A stretch of 49,503 nucleotides of DNA from Candidatus Aphodenecus pullistercoris (GTDB lineage: Bacteria > Spirochaetota > Spirochaetia > Sphaerochaetales > Sphaerochaetaceae): positions 1-49,503 of the forward strand of contig JADIMU010000066.1 of assembly GCA_017694495.1 (NCBI GenBank), given 5' to 3'. The position numbers and the translations under genes were made by a program. Positions within the stretch are counted from its first letter, which is position 1. Each line of letters begins with the position of its first letter. The notes under the pieces were generated by a model. It did not search any database. It was not told where the DNA came from and worked only from the letters and a program-made list of their open reading frames with translations. This document shows positions 37,552 to 39,670 of the stretch, piece after piece.

Positions 37552-37672
37552 AGCGTCACCTCTGGGTGAAGTGTAGCACGTATTGGCTCTCCTTGTGACA
37601 ATTTTCAAAGGGAGGGAAGCTGAAGAATTCTGCAAGTTTTTGCAATTTTCCACACCAAGAGCGCTTTTACGC

Positions 37673-37678
37673 TAGAAT
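37673..37678 (+). promoter_or_regulatory. -10 box of leaderless trmD fusion
   Basis: TAGAAT, ending 6 nt before the ATG at 37685. The GAGG in the 6-nt spacer is too close to the ATG to act as a ribosome site. Confidence 0.45.
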
Positions 37679-37684
37679 CGAGGC

Positions 37685-38908
37685 ATGAGAATACGCATCC
37701 TCAGCCTGCTTCCGCAGGCCTTCGACAGCTTCCTTTCCTACCCCGTCATCCGCCACGCAGTCGACAAGGGTCTGGTGGAGATCGAAGTCATCGACATCAG
37801 GGACTATGCCGACGGCTGCTGGCGCGCCATCGACGACTCGCCCTACGGAGGTGGTGCCGGCCTCCTTCTGAGGGTCGACGTCGTGAAGAAGGCCTTGGAC
37901 GGAGCGGCAGGAGACAAGGGACGGAGGATCCTGCTCGGCCCGAAGGGACGGCTCTTCGACCAGAAGCTTGCACATGCGCTTTCCCATGAGAAGGAGCTTG
38001 TCCTGATCGCAGGACACTATGAAGGTGTGGACGAAAGGGTTCGTTCCTACATCGACGACGAGGTCTCGATCGGTGACTACATCCTCACTGGGGGAGAGAG
38101 CGCGGCGATCGTCCTGGCCGAGGCGGTCATCAGGCTGCTGGATGGTGCGATCAAAGAGGCCTCCTCGGCCAGCGAGAGCTTCGAGGATGGCATTCTGGAG
38201 GAGCCGCAATACACCCACCCTGCGCTCTTCGACGGCAAGCGTGTTCCTGATGTGCTCATGAGTGGCAACAAAGCGGCGATCACCCACTTCAACGAGCTCG
38301 AGGCCATCAAGGACACGACCGCTCTGAGGCCGGACCTCATCCCCTCAGACCGCAGCTTCCGCTTCCACACTGTCCACAGGGACTACGGCAACGAGAAGGA
38401 CATCATCACCTGGATCGGCGACCGCCTGCCATGCCCGAGGATCGTCTGGCATACGGAAGACCACCTTGTCCTCGAGAAGAGGAATGCCCGCCCCCTATCC
38501 AGCGCAGGGCAGAAGACGATCCTCTCGACAGTCTCCTCCATCCTCAAGGCGCTGTGGTCCTTCGACACGACAGGTTGTCCGGCTGACATGAGGCTTGCAT
38601 ACAGGCTCTCCAGGCTCAGCCTGCCCTGGGCTCGTTGGCAGGCTCTCCGTCCCCTGATGGATGATGTGCATGGTGATGACCTCGTCCTCTCCCATGGCAG
38701 ACTGACTCTGGAGCACATACTCGTGAACGGCAACGGGCTCGTCGCCATCACAGACTGGCAGGATGCGGGCCTTGCCGAGAGGGAAAGGGATGTGGCAAAC
38801 ATTCTGGACCAGCTGGAAGAGGTGGGCATCAGCAAAGACGAGCTCTTCAGCCGTCTGGGCCGCGACTTCGACCCCAGACGCCTGTCCCTCATGCGCCTTG
38901 TCCCCTGA
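37685..38908 (+). CDS. trmD: tRNA (guanine-N1)-methyltransferase TrmD fused to an APH-like domain
   Basis: Protein of 407 residues; TrmD alone is about 240. Residues 1-225 are TrmD: IRILSLLPQAFDSFL, DDSPYGGGAGLLLRVD, LLGPKGRLFDQ, the knot segment IAGHYEGVDERV and the SIGDYILTGGESAA motif, then EEPQYTHPALFDG. TrmD methylates G37 of tRNAs reading CUN, CCN and CGG codons. From about 230 on, an aminoglycoside-phosphotransferase/choline-kinase fold is seen: ITWIGDRLPCPRIVWH, then LSHGRLTLEHILVNG in the place of the catalytic HGDLHPxNIL, then AITDWQDAGLAERERDVA. The catalytic Asp is Arg and the metal Asn is His, so kinase activity is doubtful. No rimM, rpsP or rplS nearby, unlike the usual trmD operon. 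Confidence 0.9.
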   Translation: MRIRILSLLPQAFDSFLSYPVIRHAVDKGLVEIEVIDIRDYADGCWRAIDDSPYGGGAGLLLRVDVVKKALDGAAGDKGRRILLGPKGRLFDQKLAHALSHEKELVLIAGHYEGVDERVRSYIDDEVSIGDYILTGGESAAIVLAEAVIRLLDGAIKEASSASESFEDGILEEPQYTHPALFDGKRVPDVLMSGNKAAITHFNELEAIKDTTALRPDLIPSDRSFRFHTVHRDYGNEKDIITWIGDRLPCPRIVWHTEDHLVLEKRNARPLSSAGQKTILSTVSSILKALWSFDTTGCPADMRLAYRLSRLSLPWARWQALRPLMDDVHGDDLVLSHGRLTLEHILVNGNGLVAITDWQDAGLAERERDVANILDQLEEVGISKDELFSRLGRDFDPRRLSLMRLVP

Positions 38909-39598: not shown

Positions 39599-39670
39599 TG
39601 GGCGATATAGGGTTTGAACCTATGACTTCCACCACGTCAAGGTGGCACTCTCCCGCTGAGTTAATCGCCC
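39599..39670 (-). tRNA. tRNA-Val (anticodon GAC)
   Basis: A 72-nt cloverleaf: acceptor GGGCGAT/ATCGCCC, D-arm ACTC-GAGT, anticodon stem CCACC/GGTGG with loop TTGACGT (anticodon GAC), T-arm ATAGG TTCAAAC CCTAT. CCA is not encoded. Confidence 0.96.

Follow-up and report, generated by a model that had tools for sequence, protein, structure and literature searches.

The window analysed here, a stretch of 49,503 nucleotides from Candidatus Aphodenecus pullistercoris, carries a gene for a second, diverged TrmD (TrmD2), and the C-terminal tail of the protein is a pseudokinase that descends from an APH(3') kinase joined to TrmD2, as supported by its fold, its ancestry and the loss of kinase residues. 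The gene is a single uninterrupted open reading frame at 37685–38908 on the + strand, with an ATG at 37685 and the stop codon at 38908, encoding 407 amino acids. Pfam places tRNA_m1G_MT at residues 24–216 (E 3e-44) and APH at residues 229–377 (34 bits, above the gathering score of 23.2), which bears out the fusion of TrmD to an APH-like domain in one frame that had been described in an earlier note on this DNA. The protein passes both NCBIfam TrmD equivalog cut-offs (253.1 against 220 and 235.9 against 195 bits), and matches APH_3p with 56.5 bits (E 3e-15), far below the cut-off of 205. The gene is flanked by an ABC-transporter gene and topA, with a tRNA-Val (gac) gene located between the fusion gene and topA (39599–39670, - strand). 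The candidate promoter listed in Table 1 ends 6 nt upstream of the ATG and would give an almost leaderless mRNA; two such consensus matches were found against 0.5 expected from shuffling.

Table 1. Coordinates of the fusion gene, its parts and the related P-loop kinase fusions
Feature	Position	Strand	Remark
TrmD2 methyltransferase domain, residues 1–220	37685..38344	+	SPOUT knot and TrmD C-terminal domain
Degenerate APH(3')-like pseudokinase tail, residues 221–407 (~185 residues)	38345..38905	+	
H337-G338-R339, remnant of the catalytic HGD motif	38693..38701	+	Arg for Asp
H344-I-L-V-N-G-N-G351	38714..38737	+	His at the metal-Asn position
Possible sigma-70-like promoter, TCCACA-18-TAGAAT	37649..37678	+	consensus match only
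AAA_33-like plus APH(3') fusions, about 434 aa	L198:856-2160, L199:1495-2799, L200:856-2160		

The window genome has two TrmD genes, and the fused copy is not the essential one, as the earlier note had assumed, but an additional, lineage-specific paralogue. The other copy of 242 residues, on contig C39 (3713–4441), is directly followed by rplS and is the canonical operonic gene. In a tree of 64 TrmD domains TrmD1 and TrmD2 are separated with a support of 100/100, with the operonic copy in TrmD1 and every fusion in TrmD2. The fused copy as the only TrmD of some genomes was considered and rejected; rplS is also missing there, or found at a contig end, indicating that the operon lies in an assembly gap. 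Genome G078 has two TrmD genes as well (L098 and L099), both in the TrmD1 clade, which reflect either a duplication or contamination.

In its methyltransferase part (residues in E. coli numbering) the window protein resembles TrmD (TIGR00088, PF01746) in the SPOUT knot, the SAM-binding residues, D50, R154 and the acidic residue D/E169, and the knot residues, D50, R154 and E169 are kept in the fused TrmD2s as well. D50 takes part in the recognition of G36, and D50, R154 and residue 169 together serve catalysis and the recognition of G36 and G37, in the roles described in PMC5372744 and PMC9508554. A loss of the general base through the Glu at 169 was rejected since Glu is also present in all spirochaete TrmD1 (33/33), and it is likewise aligned in the solved TrmDs 3ief and 8byh. 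Unlike TrmD, the window copy lies outside the ffh-rpsP-rimM-trmD-rplS operon, carries the C-terminal pseudokinase, and has R183, H201, W207 and R208 replaced. The tRNA-contact signature of the C-terminal domain (R183, SG[HN]H 198–201, W207, R208) is lacking in the degenerate fusions, with R183H and W207F in 11/11, H201 absent from 11/11 and R208N in ten of the eleven. SGHH 198–201 is a named tRNA-interacting motif (PMC11187310), and R183, W207 and R208 are putative contacts, so judged because they hardly vary in TrmD1 and not because a structure shows it. In the TrmD2s without a tail H201 is kept in 12 of 13, and W207 and R208 are mostly kept.

The tail has the protein-kinase-like C-lobe fold of APH(3') (NF033068, PF01636; PDB 1nd4, 4feu, 3q2j). 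Its AlphaFold2 model has pLDDT values mostly of 89–96, with dips to 67–79 near residues 300–330, and matches the structures of APH(3')-IIa, -Ia and -IIIa with Z 18–19; in the TrmD part the knot and the interdomain linker are poorly modelled, and the model is therefore confident for the tail and not for the arrangement of the domains. Shared with APH(3') are also the HG...RD structural residues and the alphaC Glu. Unlike APH(3'), the tail is without the beta1-beta2 hairpin, the catalytic Lys and the catalytic Asp, its substrate region is shortened, and scores are 56–60 bits against 205. The short N-lobe, the Arg for the catalytic Asp (R339) and the His for the metal Asn (H344) that the earlier note had pointed out are all confirmed, and of the Asp, Asn, Lys and hairpin set only the DFG-like D357 is kept. 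Across the eleven degenerate tails (the window and ten relatives in genera g1 and g16) the catalytic Asp is found in none, the catalytic Lys in one, the DFG-type Asp in three and the metal Asn in six, but the structural residues H337, G338, R368 and D369 in all, and a pseudokinase, one of the possibilities raised earlier, is the best reading of this pattern. The NGNG turn is invariant in the same eleven tails, and 37 columns are invariant across ten of them. The tail is under purifying selection at a dN/dS of about 0.2; three species pairs whose silent sites are not saturated give values of 0.20–0.25 for the tail and 0.165–0.20 for the TrmD part, and pairs more distant than these have saturated silent sites and are little informative.

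A set of 139 genomes from the family has the APH-like tail in three genera. The degenerate form is present in eleven genomes of g1, the genus of the window, and g16, and the search in other spirochaetes that had been suggested thus turned up the same fusion in ten more genomes, with full-length homologues in G001, G002, G009, G011 and G012 at 54–55% identity and also in G072, G079, G081, G086 and G102. In g8, a sister genus, two fusions (G022 and G156) have a complete kinase domain with the Lys, HGD, Asn and Asp. The G156 fusion passes both NCBIfam cut-offs (TrmD 270.8 against 220, APH_3p 216.8 against 205), and that of G022 is just under the latter with 195.9 bits. Four further g8 fusions, L072, L073, L074 and L075 (G157, G158, G151 and G160), keep all ATP-site residues and are without the C-terminal end and the greater part of what separates the CP motif from HGD, where 12–14 residues are left in the three measured, against 55–62 in complete kinases. 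In APH(3') enzymes aminoglycosides bind at the C-terminal end and ahead of HGD, and the kinases of L072–L075 possibly have another substrate. A stand-alone kinase is found in four g16 genomes, and TrmD2 without a tail makes up 13 rows of the TrmD tree.

The close named matches among 84,980 species genomes are all uncultured Spirochaetales or Spirochaetaceae assemblies, and from the kind of assemblies the carriers are probably gut organisms. In this set the fusion was found in close relatives only, the other matches being ordinary APHs, and among the matches listed for 393 genomes sampled from the phylum none was a fusion outside the family. Viral contigs gave nothing closer than distant APH-like matches of 22% identity, plasmid and phage records contained no TrmD2 and only TrmD matches below 60% identity that are apparently canonical, and the window protein was unmatched in a defence library. 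No general conservation of the gene neighbourhood was seen, with topA or an ABC transporter recurring in a few genomes of the genus.

In a tree of APH domains the 17 fused domains, intact and degenerate, are found on one side of a branch, apart from the stand-alone APHs of spirochaetes and other bacteria, with a support of 85/96 that is not decisive. The branch to the degenerate tails is long (1.39), and the window tail is the fastest-evolving fused tail with an end branch of 1.18. In the TrmD tree the tail-less TrmD2s form one clade nested among the fused rows, and a tree constrained to place all fused rows in a single clade is marginally rejected (AU p 0.025, with G159, which is cut by a contig end inside the linker, counted as fused); two changes suffice. 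The simplest account is a single old fusion, after which the tail degenerated in one line and was lost in another, though because of the long branches this is provisional.

With moderate confidence we take TrmD2 to be a working m1G-type methyltransferase whose contacts with RNA have changed, and its pseudokinase tail to be a non-catalytic docking or regulatory module. In uncultured gut Spirochaetales a complete APH(3')-type kinase was joined to the C-terminus of TrmD2, and in the window genus and one neighbouring genus this kinase has become a pseudokinase. Gone from it are the beta1-beta2 ATP hairpin, the catalytic Lys and Asp, some of the aminoglycoside-binding region and, to a varying extent, the metal ligands. 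Since the active-site residues are kept, the enzyme should still use SAM to methylate a G at N1, and the replaced contact residues of the TrmD C-terminal domain suggest that it holds RNA in a different way from TrmD. The tail might then act without catalysis in docking, in stabilising the dimer or in regulating the methyltransferase. Regulation of TrmD or tRNA binding, as proposed in the earlier note, is possible for the tail, although with a net charge of -5 to +3 it is near-neutral and not basic, which makes a direct, plainly electrostatic binding of RNA uncertain. Further observations speak against this explanation, namely that TrmD2 exists without a tail in a related lineage and the tail is dispensable there, that a conserved gene partner pointing to the function was not found, and that of all fused tails the one in the window evolves fastest.

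Somewhat unlikely, in our judgement, is that TrmD2 is a redundant second m1G37 methyltransferase whose tail is a vestige being lost and has no function of its own. Wherever TrmD2 occurs, TrmD1 is either present too or lies at a locus that the assembly lacks, and the tail-less rows and the long branch to the degenerate tails also fit such a decay. On the other hand, 11 species from two genera keep the tail in frame, and its dN/dS, its invariant columns and its confident fold speak against decay; the TrmD contact residues have changed too. A more specific proposal, that TrmD2 acts on some RNA or group of tRNAs which TrmD leaves unmodified, and that the fused kinase at first had this RNA, or else a nucleoside-like drug, as its substrate before turning into an RNA-docking module, is put forward tentatively as an unlikely one. 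Were it true, this would be a new tRNA-modifying system with its kinase-to-pseudokinase history visible in living relatives.

The probability is low that the ancestral fusion was a resistance-type gene, an insensitive duplicate of the essential target TrmD joined to an antibiotic kinase, of which the window keeps the duplicate only. That an essential enzyme has an extra copy of patchy distribution, located outside the operon and fused to a kinase passing the APH(3') cut-off, agrees with this, as does the report that lowered m1G37 makes bacteria more sensitive to several drugs including gentamicin (PMC10057733). On the other side the fusion is not linked to any resistance gene or to a natural drug directed at TrmD, has no conserved neighbours and was not seen on plasmids or phages, and the kinase has been lost in two genera. 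A tail that is an active phosphotransferase with unusual residues, the new activity considered in the earlier note, is very improbable for the window protein; the DFG-type Asp and the alphaC-like Glu are kept and there are g8 fusions whose kinases look intact, but the hairpin is missing and the catalytic Asp and Lys are found in 0/11 and 1/11 tails. A misassembly or annotation error joining two genes could be imagined in a genome fragmented into 70 contigs, but is rejected by ten independent genomes with the same fusion at 50–56% identity, in all of which the reading frame is open across the junction.

In bacteria TrmD is viewed as one essential, near-invariant enzyme and as a target for drugs, and a second, diverged TrmD that has the methyl-transfer centre, is without the canonical tRNA-contact residues and is joined to an antibiotic-kinase fold challenges this picture of one TrmD. 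No earlier report of a TrmD-APH fusion or of a spirochaete TrmD paralogue was found in the literature searched, subscription papers lying mostly outside it. Forms without a tail, with a complete kinase, with a truncated kinase and with a pseudokinase are found side by side in one family, and the change from an enzyme domain to a non-catalytic module can thus be tested stepwise. Among described proteins the TrmD-Tm1570 fusion of Calditerrivibrio nitroreducens (PMC11187310, PDB 8b1n) comes closest, also a TrmD with an extra C-terminal domain, in which the activity resides in the TrmD part and the tail may aid substrate binding; unlike in TrmD2, the tail is a second SPOUT domain and TrmD keeps the SGNH tRNA motif. 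This spirochaete APH(3') family also occurs joined to another domain in a different spirochaete family of the class (L198–L200, Table 1), with an AAA_33-like P-loop kinase domain as the N-terminal partner and with intact APH motifs.

Stand-alone chromosomal kinases of uncultured spirochaetes are encoded by L081:4791-5579 and its homologues L082–L084. L081, the one scanned of the four, passes the NCBIfam APH(3') cut-off (219.3 against 205 bits) and might be an intrinsic aminoglycoside phosphotransferase. Three of the four genomes (G067, G094 and G095) encode a tail-less TrmD2 elsewhere, and these are near-copies of each other.
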